Assembly (NCBI GenBank): GCA_905221605.1
Contig: CAJNDS010001990.1
Span: 655,675-719,674 of the forward strand
Origin: Symbiodinium natans
Lineage: Eukaryota > Sar > Dinophyceae > Suessiales > Symbiodiniaceae
DNA length: 64,000 nt
Reading direction: 5' to 3'
Shown: positions 31,813 to 43,800 of the stretch, one piece after another
Layout of the letters: the number at the start of each line of letters is the position of its first letter
How positions within the stretch are numbered: the stretch's first letter is position 1
The notes under the pieces: generated by a model
Seen by the model: only the letters and a program-made list of their open reading frames with translations
What the model was told of the DNA's origin: nothing
The model's database searches: none
Program-made: the position numbers and the translations under genes

Positions 31813-34800
31813 TTAAGGACTCAGGGTCGTCGGGTTGAGGAGATGGAGGACCTCAGCCCTTCCGGCGTCCTCGCACGTCGCTGACAGCCACGCAACCATC
31901 TGCTTGAAGATGCTGCCTTGCGCCCAAGGTTTAGGGTTTAGGGTTTAGGAAGATCAAAATGGATCTCGAGTTGAACCCATGAACCCTAAACCCATCCCCA
32001 TCTTTTGGCCGTGGCAAGTCGAGATCCAGCCCAGCTCAAGATGCAAAAACTGACAACGCCTGTCCAAAATCCGGAGCTTCAGAAATGCATGCGCGTGTGC
32101 CAAACTACCCGACTCGAGTGAAGTCTACTTCGTGAGCAGCCAGGGGTTCGTTCTTGACCTCTCATGGGGTATTGAGCTGGTTTGCTTTCTAGTGCGTCTC
32201 CGCGAGCCAAGCGGGGACCAGCTCTTGATTCTACATATTTCGATGAAGTGCCTACCTTGGCCTCCAACCCTAAATCCCAAACCACATACCCTACGGGACA
32301 TTAACGTCCAAAACGCAGAGTCGGCACTGTCGGCACCCGTGCAAGCCAAACCCTAAACTCCAAACCCGAACCCCGAACCCCAAACCCTAGACTACCCTGA
32401 ACCCATAACCCTGAGCCCAAACGCAAAACCCTAAACCCAAAACCCTAAACGACAGGTGACAACTGAGCCCAAAACAAGCAGATCCATTCAACCCGAACAT
32501 CATAGGGGTCCCACACCTCCCCTCCCAAATCGGACCAGGAGCATCCCCTACCACTTTAGGCTAAACCCTAAACCCTAAACCCTAAACCCTAAACCCTAAA
32601 CCCTAAACCCTAAACCCTAAACCCTAAACCCTAAACCACAGAGGGCAGAGCCTAAATGCCCCAAACCCCTACATGTCGCGTCGCCGTGCCTTCTTTGCCC
32701 TCGAAAGGGTCGAAGCGCACGACCCGGCCCTGAGAGAGCTGCAGGATGTGGGAGGGCCAGCCAGCCAGGCCTGAAAGGGGGTTCAGGGTTTAGGGTTTAG
32801 GGTTTAGGGTTGAGGCTGCAGGGTGTGTGGGGGGGGAGTCTGAGCTCCCAGGGTAGAAGGGTGTAGGGTCTAGGGTGCAGGGTTTAGGACACAGGGATGT
32901 CTAGTTACGGTAAAGATGGGCTGAGGGTTCAGGAGCTCAGGCTGTTGGGCTTCAGGAAGAAACAGTCTGCAAGGGGCGCAGTCGGTTGCAGGTTTCTCAG
33001 CTCACAGTATTGAGGGCGGAGGGGCTTCACCTTAGCTTACTGCTTCTTAGTAGTGCATTGAAGGCAAAAAGGTAATTTCCCCCGAACGATCTAGCTCCTA
33101 CTGAGAACTAGTCTCAAGCTGAGGATTCAGGTTTAGGTTTTAGGGAACCCAAACTCCTAAACCTCTCGCATATTTTTCTTTTGCTGAGGGCTGAAGATAT
33201 TGGTGCAAGGTTAGAGAAAAAAGGGGTGATGCTCCACAGGGCCTTTCAGACGAACCAAGATTTCATGCGTTTGCTCTAAGACAAAGCGGTAGACATGTTC
33301 GTGCAGCACTCGATGCAGGTCGCTGGCAAAGCCAAACCACATGACCCTGCCTTCAAAGACGTGAGTCACGTTGAGGACAGTGCTACCGGTCTGTACCTTG
33401 GAACATCTGTCGATTGCTCCCGCGTGCACTCTCAGTGCTTGCGCTGCACTTATACGACTGTGAAAGGATACGACCGGCCGAATTACCGAAACCCTAAACC
33501 CTTGTTAAAGGATGATTTCAGTTCCATGCTGCAAGGCCGATGTGTGGACAACCCCCGCAAGGTTGCGGCTACGAAAGGCACCTTGGGCACGACATGATGT
33601 CATGCAGATGTACAAAACATTTACGAGCATATGCAGCAGACATTTGTACAACACCCCACTGCTTTTGTGCATATGACTCGACAGACATAGTTCGCATTCG
33701 TTGACTCTTGCTACGAAGCAAAAAATGATCGAGCGCCATGGTTTCAGATTGCTGGGCTGCGATTGATTCCAGGCCACGGGAAATTTCAATAGGTTATGAT
33801 GGCCCAACCGCCGGCTACTGATACTCCGCTGGCAAATGGGATAGAGCCCTTTGTTGCTCATCGTGAAGATGAGCCTGCAAGCCAGGTCTGTGATGGACCG
33901 GGAAGACAGGTCTCGGATGTTCCGATGACAAGCCAAGAAGCGGCAACCTTGCAAGCTGTGCTGGAAAGTGATGCTCCGAGAGGCTATGGCACTATGGAAA
34001 ATGCCCCGAGGCCTTCGGTGACACAACCTGGAGACTTCGACCGTGTGGGGACAGAGGAGAATGGACCACGACATCTGCAGGCGGAACCTACGAATCTGAC
34101 GACTGATGATCGGGCCAGGCCCTCTGAATCTGAAAGAACTGGTGGGAGTGCAGGGCAATCAGCGCATGGGTATTTTACACCACGATCAGTACAATCTTTG
34201 GTGCCACCTCGTGGTGTTTGGTTTTCAGGAATGGAGATGCCTGGTTGGGTGAATAGATTGGGGGCCTACATGTCGATGGGAGGACACGGTGAAAACTACC
34301 CGAGTCCTTTGGCTGGAAGCTCTCGATCGTCGCCACCAGGTGGAAGAGCATTTGTGCTGCGGTCTCCAATGGGGTCCCAGCCGAAGGCCCCTGCAGCAAC
34401 GCCCCCGAGCTCGTCTTCAGTGCCTGCGGAAGCGATACAGGCTGAGGTGCAGCGACAGCTTGGTGGATTGCTTAACAGATTGCAGCAGGCTGAGGACAGG
34501 AATAAGGACCTCCACGCTGAGCTCGAGCGATATCGACGACGGGAGACCGAACAAGCCTGGAGTCCGTGGACACGAAATGAGAATCTCGCTGCTGTTGGCC
34601 CAACACAGGCCCCAGGACTGGTTACTGAGATTGGGGAGGGGCCCGGAATTTCAGATCGAGACGCAGCGTCAGTGCCAGCACCTCCTGACACATGGTCGAG
34701 TGGTCAGCAACCAGGCATTTCTTCAAGACCATATGTACATGAAGGTGAGGCCCAGTCGTTTCCCCGATCGAGTACAGCACCTCTGACTCCAGCCAACACA

Positions 34801-37800
34801 GTAACACCGGGGTTGCTGGAATCGATCATGGGAAGAGTAAGATCTCCGAGTCCCCCGCCTCCACCAAGAACAGGTTCAGATGCCGCTGTACTGGATGCCT
34901 TGACTCAGGGGATGAAGCAGCTACAAGACCTGCAGATGCAAGCAATGTCTAAGGCGACTTTGTCAAACCAGCAGGTCGAGATCGTAAAGCCTGGAACAAC
35001 CAACTTGGCACCAATACCCCAACTGAGAGGTGATTCGCTGGCGACGGCTGCTTTGGAGTTTCAAGATTGGCTGGAAGTAGCAGGGTCAGTCATGTCGGAC
35101 GTGAGTGAGAGCAGCGGACAATGGTGGCAACTTGTCATCAAGCAGGTGGATGGCACATACCACCGCTGGCTTGGCGCAACCCCTTTGGAGCGGCTACAGG
35201 TGTTTCCCGAGCAGTCGTTTGAGCTCTGTACTGGAAGATGGGTCCGACTTAATGCCCGAGTAACGTCGATGATGCTGGGAGCAATGGACGAAAGTTTGCG
35301 AGCTGACATGGTTTCTCAGAGACTGACTCAGGATACGGTGAAGATGTTGTTCCGACTGCATACCCTGTTTCAACCTGGAGGCAGCGCCGAGCGCTATGAG
35401 ATGCTCCGTCGGCTACAAACCCCCAGCGAATTTCTTCAGGGTGGAGATTCCTTGGCTGAGGCCCTCAAAGTGGTGCGAGCATGGCCTCGGTGGCTTTCCA
35501 GATGTCAGGCGGTCAAGATGAGTCCCCCTGATCCTTCGGTGCTGGCAAAAGGACTGGCTTCAGTTACAAGCAAGTACATCCAAGGGTCTGAGGATGCATC
35601 GTTCCGAACTGCAATGCTGCGAACCACCCTACGACTGGATGGGCAACCGTCTCTGGACCAGGTCATGGCTTACCAAAAACACCTACAAGCAGAGCTCGAG
35701 ACTCTTGTGGCAACAACCTCCACGACACCAACACCAAAGGTGAGAGCTGCTGATGCCCGGGCCTTGGACAAGACGGACAAGGCAAAGGATAAGGAAAAGG
35801 GTGAGCTTTGTCGCTACTTCATGAAATCCACTGGCTGCAGACGGGGAATGAAGTGCAATTATGCTCATTCCATGGCGAGTTTGGATAGGGAGACGAGGAG
35901 CAAGAAGTGTCTTCAGTGTGGGAGCGAAAGCCACCGACAGAAAGAGTGCCCAGTGGGCAAGGGTGGGTCGAAGGGAAAATCTACCTCATCCTCAGCCCCC
36001 ACCTCGCCTACCAACAAGCCGACCTCGAGCACTTCTACCACCACGAATGGACCTGTTGCAGCATCAGTGGCCGTGGAAGAAGGAAGTGGAGCAGCAGTTC
36101 AAGGCGTTCCATGGACCCTGGAGTCACTGGTTCAGGCGGCCCAACAGATTGTCCAAGCACAGGCGCAACGACCTGAGGCAACGGAAGGGGAGAAAAGCCC
36201 AGAGAAGACTTCCTCACTTCGTGTTCTCATCGTGAAGGATATCCGAGTGTGCTCCTTGAGGACGACGACTGCTCTGCTGGACTCAGGAGCCACCCATGCG
36301 TTGAGAAGTGCGACTTCCTGGGAGGAGTGGAGTCAATCGGAGCCAGTGATGGTTCAGCTGGCAGGAAGTCACTCGCTTCAGATGAAGATGAATCAGGCTG
36401 GGTCACTCCTCATGCCACCCAAGACCACCGGGGCCGAAGGAGAGGGACAAACAATAGTTCCTCTCGGTGAACTGGTGAAGACACTGGGATATACCCTTCA
36501 TTGGTCTCCAGATGCATGTTTGCTCTTGGATGAGAATGGAGGGAAGACGCGGCTCAATGTGAGCAGTGGCTGCCCGCAGATGTGTGAAGTCGAGGCCTTA
36601 ACGCTGATCGCTCGCTTGGAGGAAAGAAAGAGAGAGCGATTGGAGAATGAGACCTTGGTGACGCAGGACAGAATTGCAGCGGTGGCGGCGGGCATGGACA
36701 AGTCGTGGTTCGAGTACCTCATGCACTACACCAACAATGGCAACCGAGAAATGGGGTTGAGGGCTTTGAGGGACGCACCTTTCCTACAGGACCTGCCGGG
36801 AGAGTGCTTGAATGGCATGGTACCTTCCGCCCTGCCTGAATCAGGGTGGGATGTCCTCAAGCCGATCGAGTTCCTGACCCGTGCCCAGCGAAGATCCCTG
36901 CTGCGAGCAAAACGATGGGTGGTCCACTTGTGTGCTGGGAAAGAAAGTCACATCGAGTTCTTCAAGTTGGACAAGGGAGATACCGCCGTTCTGGAACTGG
37001 ATGTCGATCGTTGCAAAGGGCAAGACATTCTCAGCGAAAGAGTCTGGCGGATGCTGATGTGGGGAGCTCGGGAAGGTCGAGTGGACTTGATATTTGGGGG
37101 ACCGCCTGGAAGAGCCGATCTGGTCGCAGCACTGAACCGCAAGGAACCACTGGCGCTAAAGAACCTGGCAGTGATCGCCCGAATGCTGTGGCTGCATGTG
37201 GTCGCTACTTCTGGTCGACTCACGAGAGCCAAGGGGAGCAATAGGAGGAGGTCTGTTGGTTTCTTCTTGGAGCATCCTGGGGAACTCACGAAAAAAGGGT
37301 CTCTGTGGAAGATGCCGTTGTGGGAGTCGTTCCAGGAGGAGTCGGGTCAATTCAAAGTCAGCTTTGACCAGCGGGGCATGGGGGCACTCTCGTCATCGCC
37401 TACAACCATCGGAACGAACATCCCCTATTTCCAGGCCCTTCAGGATGTTGGAGTGGAGTCTGAGCAAATGGAAGGTGAATCAGTAACTACCTCTCGATGG
37501 TCTCCTGGATTGGTGAAGGCGATGCTGGTGGCGTTCCATATGTGGACGAAATCTCCCTCATTGTTGGCCCTGAGTGAAAGAGCTTGGCAGAAACATGTCG
37601 AGAACAACCACGAACCATTTCGCCGTGACTGCTTGACCTGCGTGATGTCACGAGGAGTTGGAAAAAGACATGCCAGAATTTGCCACCCCGACTCCTACGT
37701 GCTAACTTCGGATCTCACTGGACCAATCAAACCTGGTCTAGATACAATGGTGAGAGGAAGCCTGACCAAATCAATGAGATATATCTTGGTGGCTCGCTAC

Positions 37801-40800
37801 GCCTTCCCGACTGAGTTCCTCAAATCTTATCGAGGAGGAGATCTTCCGCAGGGTCCGGGACTACATCTTCCAGAGGAGGACGATGGAAGCGGCGGGGGGA
37901 TAGGACCACTCGGGGACAAGGAGCTGGATTTGGAGGCGGCAGCAAGCCATCGAGGTGATCCTTCTGGTGAAGTGCGGGATGATGATGTCCGCAGCAACGA
38001 GGAGGGTGAGCTGGTTTTGGAAGATGGAATGGATGAAGAGATGCCCCGCGGGAGCCTTGGCGATGAAGATGCACCAGAATCCGGCGATGAGGCAGATGAC
38101 AAAAAGAATCCCCTTGAGTCGTCTGGAGAAGAAGGAGTGCCAGTCGATGGAAAAGGGCACAAGGTGATGGTGCAGGGAGATTGCGAGGCCCCGGAGATGA
38201 GCTACTTGGTGTTCTCGACCGCGCTGACAGACAACAAGAACGCAACGATTCGAGCTGCTCTACAGGATGTTGTTCTTTACATTGCCAGTTTGGGAATGCC
38301 GGTGATGAGATTTCATGCTGATCGAGGGGAGTTTTTCTCTACCCACTTCCGGGCATGGCTGCGGAACCAAGGAATCCGTGCAACTTGGAGTGAGCCAGGA
38401 GTTCCTCAGTCGAATGGAATGGCCGAGAGGACGGTTCGCTGGATTAAGGATCGAGCCAGGACTCTACTTCGAGGAGGAGGATTGCCATTGGAACTATGGC
38501 CAGCTGCAGTGGAAACAGCAGCCGCAGAGCAGCGGGCGAGGGTCCTTGGGTGGAGGTCAAAGTTGATGGCTCCGTTTGGATCGAGAGTTCACTTGAAGAA
38601 AAGGCCATTCACTGCCAAGGGACCCAGGAGAAAGGCTGAAGCGCTAGAGTCAAAGTGGACATCAGGACATTATGTGGGTCTAAGTGGCCTTATAGACAAT
38701 GGCCACCTGGTCTATGTACCTCCTGGGAATGATGGACCTGAAGACAAAGGAGGATTTCTTCACACTATGCATGTCCGGCCACATTTACACGATCCCGGAC
38801 CTCCTGTGGATGAGCTGGATGTCGATCTTCCTGAACCCTTGGCGAGGCGACGAATCGTAGGGAAAAGAAGACCAGCTGAAAGAAAGCTTCAAGTTTCCAA
38901 CCCGTCCCAGGAGGAGATCGCTAAATATGCAACTTCGAGAGCCGCCGAGTTACTTGAGGACTGGAACTTCGAAGAGGCAAAACTGCTGGTGGAAGAACTT
39001 GGAGCGCTGGGGTTCTTTGACATGAGGAAATTCGGTGTCTACCGTCACGGAGGCGTGGTTGGAACCATGAAAGGGTCACTGGAGTTTCCGGAGTTGACAA
39101 AACTCATGGCAAGGATTATCAAGGACACTGAGCCTTCGGCGACCTTTACAGCAATGTGGGTGGCGAGAAATGTCGAGCGAGGAGTACATCAAGACCAAAA
39201 CAATGCAGGAGCCTCGTACAATTATGTCGTTCCGATTGTGTGCCCTGATAAAGGAGGTGAATTATGGGTAGAGCTGGAGTCGGGGGACGTAGTTACCGGA
39301 AGGGTCACGAAGGCACTGGACAAGGATGGTCGAGAGATGTATGGACAACTGCTTCCGTTGACAATGAATACCTGCAATGTTTTTTCCCCCCGACGACGAC
39401 ATCAAATACTACCATGGAAGGGAGAAAGGCAGGTGTTGATTGGCTACACCCCGGAATGCATGGGCAAACTCACCTATGATGACATCGAACGACTGGAAGA
39501 ATTGGGCTTTGTGGTGCCAACGTTTCAATTTCCGGAGGCAGGACTACGAAGCGATGTGAAACTTCAGGGAGTTGTGGCCGAAGGACATGGAGAACCCCCG
39601 GAAGACGGAAGTGGAAACAACTACTTGGAGATTGACAGAGGATGGGTGTGTATTGATCCATTGCTAGAAAAACCACTTCCAGAAGCTCCAGCCGCCAAGA
39701 AAATTGAAGTTGGCTACACGAGGAACATTGAGAAGCTGCTTTCGGAATTGACAGGTCCATTGGAGGTAACCCACAATGTGCACCCTGATGAGGTTGTGGC
39801 CAACATCGAGGCATGGGAGCCGGCAATACGAAAGGAAGTCAACAGTGTGTCGGTTGCCATACAAAAGTTGCTGGTTGGCGCGGAGGAGCGGAATCGTTGG
39901 TTTGCTCGACCAGGCGCGCAGCGATTACCTGCAAAGTTTGTCTTCACGATAAAGCCAAGGGATGATGCTGTGGCCACTGACCCAACAACATGGTTTAAGC
40001 GAAAAGCCCGACTTGTGGTGTGTGGCAACATGGCAACGAATGAATGTGGATCAGTCTACACCGAGGCTGCCCCTGCGGAGTCTGTGAGAGCTGCGCTGGT
40101 TATGACAGTTAAAAATTCCTGGGTGATTGGTGTGCTGGATGTGGTTACAGCTTTTCTTCGTACTCCGATAGGGGAGACAAAGGGCGACCCGGTGATCATG
40201 ATACAGCCACCAAAACTTCTGGAAAAAATGGGTATAACAAGCTCCTGGGAACTTTGGGGATTGGTTCGTGCATTATACGGACTCAAGGAATCGCCGCGGC
40301 TGTGGGGGGCTTACAGAGACAAACAACTGGCTGAGCTCACAGTGACGATTGCTGGAGCCATTTGGTGCATGAGGCAAGGGAAGGCCATTACAAGCTGGTG
40401 GACAGTGCGGGATGAAAATGAGACGGTCCAAGCAGTTGTGGTAGTTTATGTCGACGATTTCTTGCTGTGTGGTAAGGAACCTGTGATTAGACAGTTGGCC
40501 AAGGAAATCCAAACTCTCTGGGAGACATCTGATCTGCGATTGTTACAACGGGATGTCGATCTGAGATTTCTTGGAATGGAGTTGCATTACGAGGATAATG
40601 GGTCACTGAGCATATCACAGGGGGCGTACGTGCAAGAGTTGTTGCGAAGCCACGGGGTTGAGAATCCGCATTCTTGCAAGGTTCCACTCAGCAAAGAGCA
40701 TGCAGTAATGGAGATATCGGAAGATGAGACTGGTGCAGATTTGCAGGACATTCGTGATGCCCAACAACGAACAGGCGAAATCTTATGGTTGAGTCAGCGG

Positions 40801-43800
40801 TCTCGACCTGACCTAGCTTATTTGTCCTCGATCATGGCCTCGTTATCGACCCGCTCACCACGAAGAACAATCCAACTGGGGCAGCGAGCTTTGGGGTACT
40901 TGTTCAAAACTAGGTGGTATAAGCTTGGCATCACCTTCGATGGAAATCAGCTTTCGATGTACTGCGATGCTGCATTCGCTCCGGAGGGCGGACGGTCGCA
41001 CGAGGGATGGGCTGTGATGTGGGCTGGAACTCCAATCCTCTGGAGATCGGGAAGACAAAGTCTGACTTCGCTTTCGACGGGGGAGAGCGAATTGATTGCC
41101 ATTCTGAACGGGACCCTGGGAATGCTGAGTGTCGAATCCATGTTATGCGACTTGGAAATAAGAGTTGAAAAAAGGGAGGTGAGGTCTGACAGCACGGCAG
41201 CCCTGGCGATAGCGAGTGGTGGAAGCAGCTGGAGAACCAGGCATCTTCGAATCAAGGCAAACTGGTTGTTTGAACATCTCCAATCGGGCTATGTGACTTC
41301 CAGACATTGTGCGGGCGTGGTGCAGTTAGCAGATTTGTTAACAAAGGCTCTGGCTGGACAAAGGATTATCGACTTGCTGGCATTGTGGGGAATGCATTGC
41401 ACTGGAGCAAGAGTTCACCACACCGAGACACCAAAGGGAGCTGCGCGGATTCTTGTTGCGATGATATGTTGTCTGTTGGTGTTGACGACGGAAGCTTCAA
41501 GAGAGACGGCCAGGATTGAGGAGGAGGCCCACATGAGAGGCATACAGCTGGATTGGGATTTGGTTGGATGGCTGTTGATATTCCTGGCGATCATTGGATT
41601 AGTGGCAGCTTGGGAAGCAAGCAAGTGGATCGCTGGACAGATTGCAAACGAATGGACACCTGGAGCAAGTAAGAGGAAGCTAAAGAAACTGAAAAAACTC
41701 CGTGATGTCACTGCAGCTGCGATACAAATGGAACTGGAATACCAGGCAAAGGTTCGAACTGGAGAACAACCAGATTCCACAGTCCAACGAGAACCACCAG
41801 ATTCCACAGTCCAACGAGAACCACCAGATTCCACAGTCCGACGAGAACCACCAGATTCCACAGTCCGACGAGAACCACCAGATTCCACAGTCCGACGAGA
41901 ACCACCAGATTCCACAGTCCGACGAGAACCACCAGATTCCACAGACCGACGAGAGCGAGCTGTAGGACAGAACCCACAGCCGAGTACCCCACGAGTCCTG
42001 AGGTCGTTTGAGGAGTTATTACAGTCACCAAGTGGATCAGCTGTCACCTTGACGGACACTCCGGAAGATAGTCTGGAGCGTGAGAGGGTCGCACAGGATA
42101 CAGTCATGTTGATGACCGTGGACGAGATCAAAGCTGGACTGAGGCAAGAAGGCTATCGAACTTCAGGGCTTAAGGAGGAATTGGCTGCGAGGCTTTCAGT
42201 GAAGTTGCTCAATGAAGAGGCTGGCAGGCAGCAACCGACAACGAGACAGCTCAAGTACGTCTTGTGGTTGTGGCGGAGGCACAGCTTGGGCTTCAAGTAC
42301 CACTTAAAGTGGAGAGATATTAACGAGAAGGGACGCATTTCTGCATGGCTGGCATCATGGAAGCATGGATAAGTGATTGCAGCTGGGGCCTATCGTCACA
42401 GCTGAGGAGGAGTGTTAAAGGATGATTTCAGTTCCATGCTGCAAGGCCGATGTGTGGACAACCCCCGCAAGGTTGCGGCTACGAAAGGCACCTTGGGCAC
42501 GACATGATGTCATGCAGATGTACAAAACATTTACGAGCATATGCAGCAGACATTTGTACAACACCCCACTGCTTTTGTGCATATGACTCGACAGACATAG
42601 TTCGCATTCGTTGACTCTTGCTACGAAGCAAAAAATGATCGAGCGCCATGGTTTCAGATTGCTGGGCTGCGATTGATTCCAGGCCACGGGAAATTTCAAT
42701 AACCCTAAACCCTAAATCCTAAACCCTAAACCCTAAACCCTAAACCCTGCTTCTTGGCACTCCTGCCAAGCCTATGAAGCCTGACTCATTCGCGCGACAA
42801 GACCGGGCCTGAGAGCACCGAACATGCCACTGTGGGGTTTTAGCATTTAGGGGTTTAGGGTGTAGGGTTTAGGGTTTAGGCTTTAGGGCTTTCGGGTTAA
42901 GGGCTCAGGGTTCGGAGGTGATTTTGGGTTTAGGGTTTAGAGGTGAGGGCAGGGTTTCCTAGCCTTTTTTCTTTAGGGCGTGTGGGGAACTCTCTGAATT
43001 CCGCCTCTGCATGATAGTACCAGAAACCCTGCCCCAGCGGTTCATAATCTAATCTTATCCACACATGAACGACTAGATATGTTAGGCATATACGGGTGCT
43101 GATGCATCTACATCTACATCACATATTATATAAAACACCGTATGCACCCTCCACTGCGAGATTCAGGGGTAGTTATAAGTTATAACAAGTAGGTTGTCTA
43201 AAATCGTAAATGGCGCTAGACGTACGTGGCGCACGAGCCATAAAGCCAAAACCTACTAAAGGGGCCTTAATAATTAGAATAGGCTTTTGGGGGGTCAGTA
43301 TAGTATAACTCTAAAGGGACCCTAAGGGAATACTATTAGTAATTATTCCGACCCCTATATTATCTACTCTAAACCCTAAACTCTAACCCCAAACCTCCGC
43401 AGGTATCACTTATCGACGTTAGACCCCAAAGTAGGGATTCTTCGCCTACCCGGAGCCGCAGGGTAACCAACAAAACCCTAAACCCTAAACCCCAAACCCG
43501 AAACCCTAAACCCTAAACCCTAAACAGCTAGAAAGCTCTAAACCTGAAACCCTTTCCTGTGCCGGGATGCCAGGAACTCGAGGAGCGACTGCCGCACCAG
43601 CATGTCCAGCTCGGAGGTGACCTCCTGGGGAGATTGGGCGCCATGCTGAGGGTTTAGGGTTTAGGGTTTAGGGTTTAGGGTTTAGGGTTTAGGGTCAGGG
43701 TTTAGGGTTTAGGGTTCAGGTTTTAGGGTTTAGGGTTTAGGGTTTAGCGGGGGGGGGGGGGGGGGAATTGAGGCTCAGGGGCTTTACATAGTGACTTAGT

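Follow-up and report, generated by a model that had tools for sequence, protein, structure and literature searches.

The 64,000-nucleotide stretch of Symbiodinium natans DNA analysed here (the window; contig CAJNDS010001990.1, positions 655,675 to 719,674) contains a Copia long terminal repeat (LTR) retrotransposon whose polyprotein carries, in frame, a domain resembling the TET/JBP family of Fe(II)/2-oxoglutarate (2OG) dioxygenases. The reading that this Copia Pol encodes an oxygenase of that kind, acting on the 5-methyl group of pyrimidines in DNA, is given a probability of about 0.65. The element encodes a single Gag-Pol of 2858 amino acids in one stop-free open reading frame (ORF) on the + strand (33796-42372); the opposite strand contained three stops in the single frame translated. 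It is a Copia element because integrase lies upstream of reverse transcriptase, the reverse transcriptase matches RVT_2 and the LTRs are accompanied by a target duplication. The domain order agrees with the original prediction, made from the sequence alone, which had placed the oxygenase between the integrase and reverse transcriptase of a copia polyprotein.

AlphaFold2 gave a confident model of the domain with the double-stranded beta-helix oxygenase fold of the TET/JBP family. A Foldseek search of the PDB returned 19 rows at E <= 0.001, of which 17 are named oxygenase, hydroxylase or a similar 2OG enzyme, the remaining two being 2rg4, a protein that is uncharacterised, and 8ag3, the N-terminal domains of vaccinia C16; the top VIA rows were, in order, NgTET1, FTO, SnoN and AlkB. 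The translated ORF contains HQDQNN (residues 1798-1803), GGELWVE (residues 1820-1826, nucleotides 39253-39273), His1869 (39400-39402) and Arg1878 (39427-39429) at the positions from which a 2OG-Fe(II) dioxygenase layout had been proposed, providing the predicted HxD...H Fe ligands and 2OG-binding Arg of TET/JBP enzymes. The model and the Foldseek matches bear this layout out, and structure prediction revealed neither the lack of a beta-helix fold nor the best match to an unrelated family that had been named as grounds for abandoning it. The accompanying argument that HxDxxN indicates TET/JBP was discarded as non-specific, since PHD2 carries HVDNPN and the motif is therefore not diagnostic; kinship to TET/JBP itself gains support through distant copies, the window domain having no Pfam match of its own.

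That kinship is visible in the wider family. The window domain matched no family in a Pfam scan, including Tet_JBP (PF12851), and none in PHROGs or NCBIfam. A phmmer search of the PDB with it gave 11 chance-level matches (best E 0.015, to a histidine kinase), a 12-row domain profile matched no PDB sequence, and 12 stretches of viral contigs that fit the pattern included no relatives; PF20515 matched neither the domain nor the control sequences. A Tet_JBP search of the genome found 27 places at E <= 1 (best 0.00117), none above the cut-off, and all 20 of those examined (eight fetched as loci and 12 further; two in broken frames) belong to the element's oxygenase family. The list of the 150 copies closest to the window includes only two of these 27 places, the rest being distant branches. 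Ten distant copies were scanned against all of Pfam, and six matched Tet_JBP with E-values (1.1e-6, 4e-6, 7.9e-5, 9.7e-5, 1.4e-4 and 3.2e-4) that are flattering because these copies were picked for matching; the four picked without regard to Tet_JBP had no Pfam match, and no other 2OG family matched in any of the ten. Among 16 members also picked without regard to Tet_JBP, one matched it at E 3.8e-5, with weaker fold-class matches to Asp_Arg_Hydrox (0.03), Cupin_2 (0.039) and 2OG-FeII_Oxy_3 (0.051) and one unrelated model at E 9.3e-4, and one of 12 other family members had a weak WelO5 match (E 0.12). The best relative reached 28.5 bits against the curated Tet_JBP cut-off of 34.9 bits, so the domain is called TET/JBP-like and not a family member. 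At this sub-threshold level the wider family is nearer to Tet_JBP than to other 2OG families, and transitive homology through distant copies, together with the fold, supports the TET/JBP-like assignment.

The domain is widespread and conserved. A search with residues 1720-1910 found 12 large proteins (1860-2983 amino acids; 39-53% identity across 98-99% of the domain), and all five that bear an organism name are from Symbiodinium. A domain-only profile found 37 proteins at E <= 0.01 among 8000 scored candidates, many of them short, and a deeper profile found 25 at E <= 1, several overlapping the earlier matches; no protein matched by these two profiles has a Pfam 2OG label. The organism's own genome (759 Mb, 2543 contigs) was searched with a 161-amino-acid query, and all 150 copies scored from 1530 first-look candidates match without internal stops, many in frames of 2800-3500 amino acids. 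The domain sits between integrase and reverse transcriptase in 19 of 20 fetched 10-kb loci, with reverse transcriptase identity down to 28%; the exception is L025. The 12 homologues, the window and 28 loci (L001 being the window again) were aligned in 41 rows, which form 29 clusters under 90% identity with a median pairwise identity of 36%. None of the four residues predicted to be catalytic varies in any of the 29 clusters, and the 14 invariant positions among 161 core columns include H1798, D1800, N1803, G1821, W1824, H1869, R1878 and Y1884. The probability that the four named residues would all fall in invariant columns by chance is ~4e-5, and conservation across the 29 clusters rules out a chance motif.

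The oxygenase domain is also under purifying selection. The ratio of nonsynonymous to synonymous substitution rates (dN/dS) between the window and L009 is 0.04 for the domain (dS 0.77), 0.04 for reverse transcriptase and 0.04 for RNase H. The other five usable pairs of the eight compared gave 0.08-0.18, three of these with dS >= 1.95, and dS for the domain was saturated in the remaining two (window with L010, L020 with L021). These ratios rule out a decayed passenger domain. Pairwise identities of the domain and of reverse transcriptase correlate across 29 polyproteins (r 0.867, with none of 2000 permutations as high), comparably to the correlations with reverse transcriptase of RNase H (0.90), integrase (0.86) and the methyltransferase-fold domain described below (0.89). 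The simplest reading is a single old gain maintained by selection, with two pairs deviating. The oxygenase domains of L023 and L024 are 55% identical, compared with 95% for gag, 84% for reverse transcriptase and 90% for RNase H, possibly through domain exchange or fast divergence, and P0003 and P0009 show a similar mismatch.

The original prediction made no mention of a further domain in the same polyprotein, for which structure prediction gave a C5-methyltransferase (C5-MTase) fold (residues ~1038-1255). Motif IV of this domain reads PPGR in 13 of 33 proteins and GGPPCR in nine; it is GGPPGR in the window copy, which does not have the catalytic Pro-Cys. The domain has no match to PF00145 or in sequence-profile comparison, and hhalign against true C5-MTases gave a probability of 0.67%, with motif IV in register, compared with 0.15-0.26% for four control pairs. 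The sequence-level tie was rejected on this result, and because that link failed the C5-MTase assignment is made from structure and motifs. A cysteine-bearing sister group exists, and the window's cysteine-less domain is probably kept for binding DNA or S-adenosylmethionine. The domain is the probable partner of the oxygenase. The predicted folds of a DNA methylase and of a base oxidase are united in a single polyprotein.

In the proposed mechanism, the element's protease would release the oxygenase after translation or leave it beside integrase and reverse transcriptase. The oxygenase would then place a hydroxyl on the 5-methyl group of pyrimidine bases, converting thymine to 5-hydroxymethyluracil (5hmU) or 5-methylcytosine (5mC) to 5-hydroxymethylcytosine, in element cDNA, integrated copies or target DNA, and new copies could benefit by resembling or escaping the host's modified chromatin or silencing. 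Knowledge of the family suggests that the reaction would be a hydroxylation at the 5-methyl group of a base, dependent on Fe(II) and 2OG. The substrate may be either thymine or 5mC, the methylase fold favouring 5mC and the base content of the host favouring thymine.

The domain could instead be an AlkB/FTO-like 2OG oxygenase acting on RNA or N-methylated bases, for example removing N6-methyladenosine (m6A) from element RNA in the manner of an orchid Gypsy element, which appears unlikely: the AlkB model PF13532 has eight places in the genome, none <= 8 kb from the 150 listed copies, the best of these places (L056) has no family-profile match, and no member scanned matched PF13532. Recruitment of a prolyl 4-hydroxylase (P4H)/PHD-like protein hydroxylase, whose target would be Gag, integrase or a host protein, would agree with the bacterial P4H and PHD2 among the Foldseek rows, with the single 2OG-FeII_Oxy_3 and Asp_Arg_Hydrox matches among the 16 members, and with the HxDxxN, GGxL and H-x8-R spacing that PHD2 also shows. 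This origin is nevertheless judged more unlikely still, as the P4H-type model PF13640 has 33 places in the genome, none <= 8 kb from the listed copies, and the best of them (L042 and L043) have no match to the family profile, which L029 matches at E 3e-33. PF13640 was not matched above its cut-off among the 16 members (one at E 0.051), whereas Tet_JBP was the best 2OG match in that scan by nearly three orders of magnitude (in one member), and the domain is associated with a DNA-methyltransferase fold.

It is also conceivable that the domain keeps its fold and metal site but has no turnover, its role in Pol being structural or one of DNA binding. The neighbouring C5-MTase-fold domain, which stays conserved although PPGR replaces PPCR in 13 of 33 proteins, shows that this polyprotein can retain an enzyme fold whose chemistry is gone. 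The predicted Fe and 2OG residues are, unlike that domain's cysteine, invariant, and a 2OG-binding Arg is unnecessary for a scaffold role, which makes this the most improbable of the alternatives.

The element is young, as its LTRs are identical and flanked by a 5-bp target duplication (Table 1). The GGTTATG that directly follows the 5' LTR, which we take to resemble the half-tRNA-iMet site of Drosophila copia, is also present at the 5' LTR end in L010, L012, L013 and L016, four of the eight other loci examined. The aspartic protease region and the RNase H segment had no match in the Pfam scan of the window polyprotein. Two hydrophobic stretches 3' of RNase H (41437-41613, by eye) could be membrane segments, and tandem 27-nucleotide repeats (41762-41954) encode seven EPPDSTVRR-like units of nine amino acids near the C terminus, followed by the SAP-like domain. 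Telomere-like CCCTAAA-type repeats surround the element (33487-33502 and 42702-42740), and the copies L010, L011, L012 and L013 also end beside such repeats. Under a strict rule these flanks occur in five of seven tested (L015 and L016 fail; L014 and L021, whose 3' ends were not placed, were left out), compared with 17% of positions in the rest of the window, and the repeats are a possible target preference.

Table 1. Features of the Copia element, with positions in the window.
Feature	Position	Strand	Residues	Basis or remark
Target duplication ACCCT, 5 bp	33498-33502 and 42702-42706			Flanks both LTRs
5' LTR, 289 nucleotides	33503..33791	+		100% identity with 3' LTR
Primer-binding-site-like GGTTATG	33792..33806	+		Directly 3' of 5' LTR
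CCCH zinc finger of Gag	35797..35874	+	668-693	PF00642 E 6.4e-5 and PF18044 E 1.5e-5, both above cut-off
Aspartic protease region	36211..36555	+	806-920, DSGAT at 829	By eye; alignable in 10/12 homologues
C5-methyltransferase-fold domain	36907..37560	+	~1038-1255	Motif IV GGPPGR, catalytic Cys to Gly
Integrase, HHCC-like then DDE	37561..38475	+	D1306, D1509, E1544	PF00665 weak, E 0.011, below cut-off; catalytic residues by eye
TET/JBP-like Fe(II)/2OG oxygenase domain	38953..39525	+	1720-1910	Predicted fold, conservation, family kinship
HQDQNN, predicted Fe ligands and invariant Asn	39187..39204	+	H1798, D1800; N1803	29/29 clusters
Predicted distal Fe ligand and predicted 2OG-binding Arg	39400..39429	+	H1869; R1878	29/29 clusters
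Copia reverse transcriptase	39922..40692	+	2043-2299, YVDD 2218-2221	RVT_2 E 8.1e-20
RNase H	40933..41385	+	2380-2530	Conserved segment in homologues; named from position and motifs
SAP-like DNA-binding domain	42103..42195	+	2770-2800	PF02037 E 0.0014, below cut-off
3' LTR, 289 nucleotides	42413..42701	+		Purine tract GAGGAGGAG just before

Other architectures were also observed. The long frame that holds the oxygenase domain of L025 also matches a RING finger, at a score just under the cut-off, with no recognisable Gag, integrase or reverse transcriptase within the fetched 10 kb. A separate ORF type has the oxygenase domain at the N terminus (1299-amino-acid frames in L035 and L036, 288 amino acids in L033), followed in L035 by a methyltransferase-fold-like region. 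The ~2780-amino-acid ORFs of L029, L031 and L037 have another domain order, in which the oxygenase domain precedes an integrase-like region; L037 also has a Copia-like reverse transcriptase.

To our knowledge, no retrotransposon-encoded TET/JBP-like oxygenase has been described earlier. No open-licence report of a retrotransposon-borne or dinoflagellate domain of this kind was found among the titles listed by broader literature searches (for one of them, 20 of 359), and searches of the open-licence literature for JBP, JBP1 or a TET dioxygenase in dinoflagellates found no paper. The JBP proteins of kinetoplastids convert thymine to 5hmU with a Tet_JBP core, the same chemistry and core as proposed for the window domain, but their genes belong to the host, serve the base J pathway and have no retroelement context. 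JBP thymine hydroxylases are also mentioned in a fungal survey whose DNA transposons (Kyakuja and others) likewise carry a double-stranded beta-helix oxygenase with a Tet_JBP-type core in many copies per genome (PMC12730594). The systems in that survey are DNA transposons and Helitrons, whereas the oxygenase in the window lies in frame within Copia Pol, and the survey's available text reports no fungal retrotransposon with TET/JBP. An orchid Ty3/Gypsy element likewise places a 2OG oxygenase on an LTR retrotransposon, with m6A demethylase activity in vitro (PMC9289625), but as an additional ORF of the AlkB family in a plant Gypsy element rather than a TET/JBP-like domain in Copia Pol; domain gain in plant Copia elements was not observed by its authors, according to the text available. 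C5-methyltransferase domains likewise occur in dinoflagellate retroelements, in the DNA methyltransferase (DNMT)-bearing LINE and DIRS retrotransposons reported from Symbiodinium and in those of charophytes, but according to the accessible part of that report no DNMT domain is present in the Copia elements of Symbiodinium (PMC5890265). At the level of predicted fold, the divergent C5-MTase fold in Copia, missed by PF00145, corrects this statement.

The presence of 5hmU in dinoflagellate DNA, on which the original prediction had drawn, agrees with the literature, in which this base is described as replacing 12-70% of thymine depending on the species, with TET-family enzymes named in general terms as its likely makers and no dinoflagellate gene named in the available text (PMC6723414), and, in Breviolum, as showing enrichment at particular repeats (PMC11071213). 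No Tet_JBP match above cut-off was found anywhere in the genome by a search blind to introns, which an intron-split host gene could escape. Because all 20 examined of the 27 Tet_JBP-like places lie in the element's family, the 5hmU-making oxygenases of dinoflagellates might be transposon-borne or domesticated from these transposons, an idea that is possible but doubtful. If true, the modified base so abundant in the host genome would be written by Copia elements, and their methyltransferase-fold domain would serve as a targeting or partner module. The many-copy, selected TET/JBP-like domain is a concrete, expressible candidate for 5hmU chemistry or counter-silencing, and the element's oxygenase may help explain the abundance of the modified base in dinoflagellate DNA.
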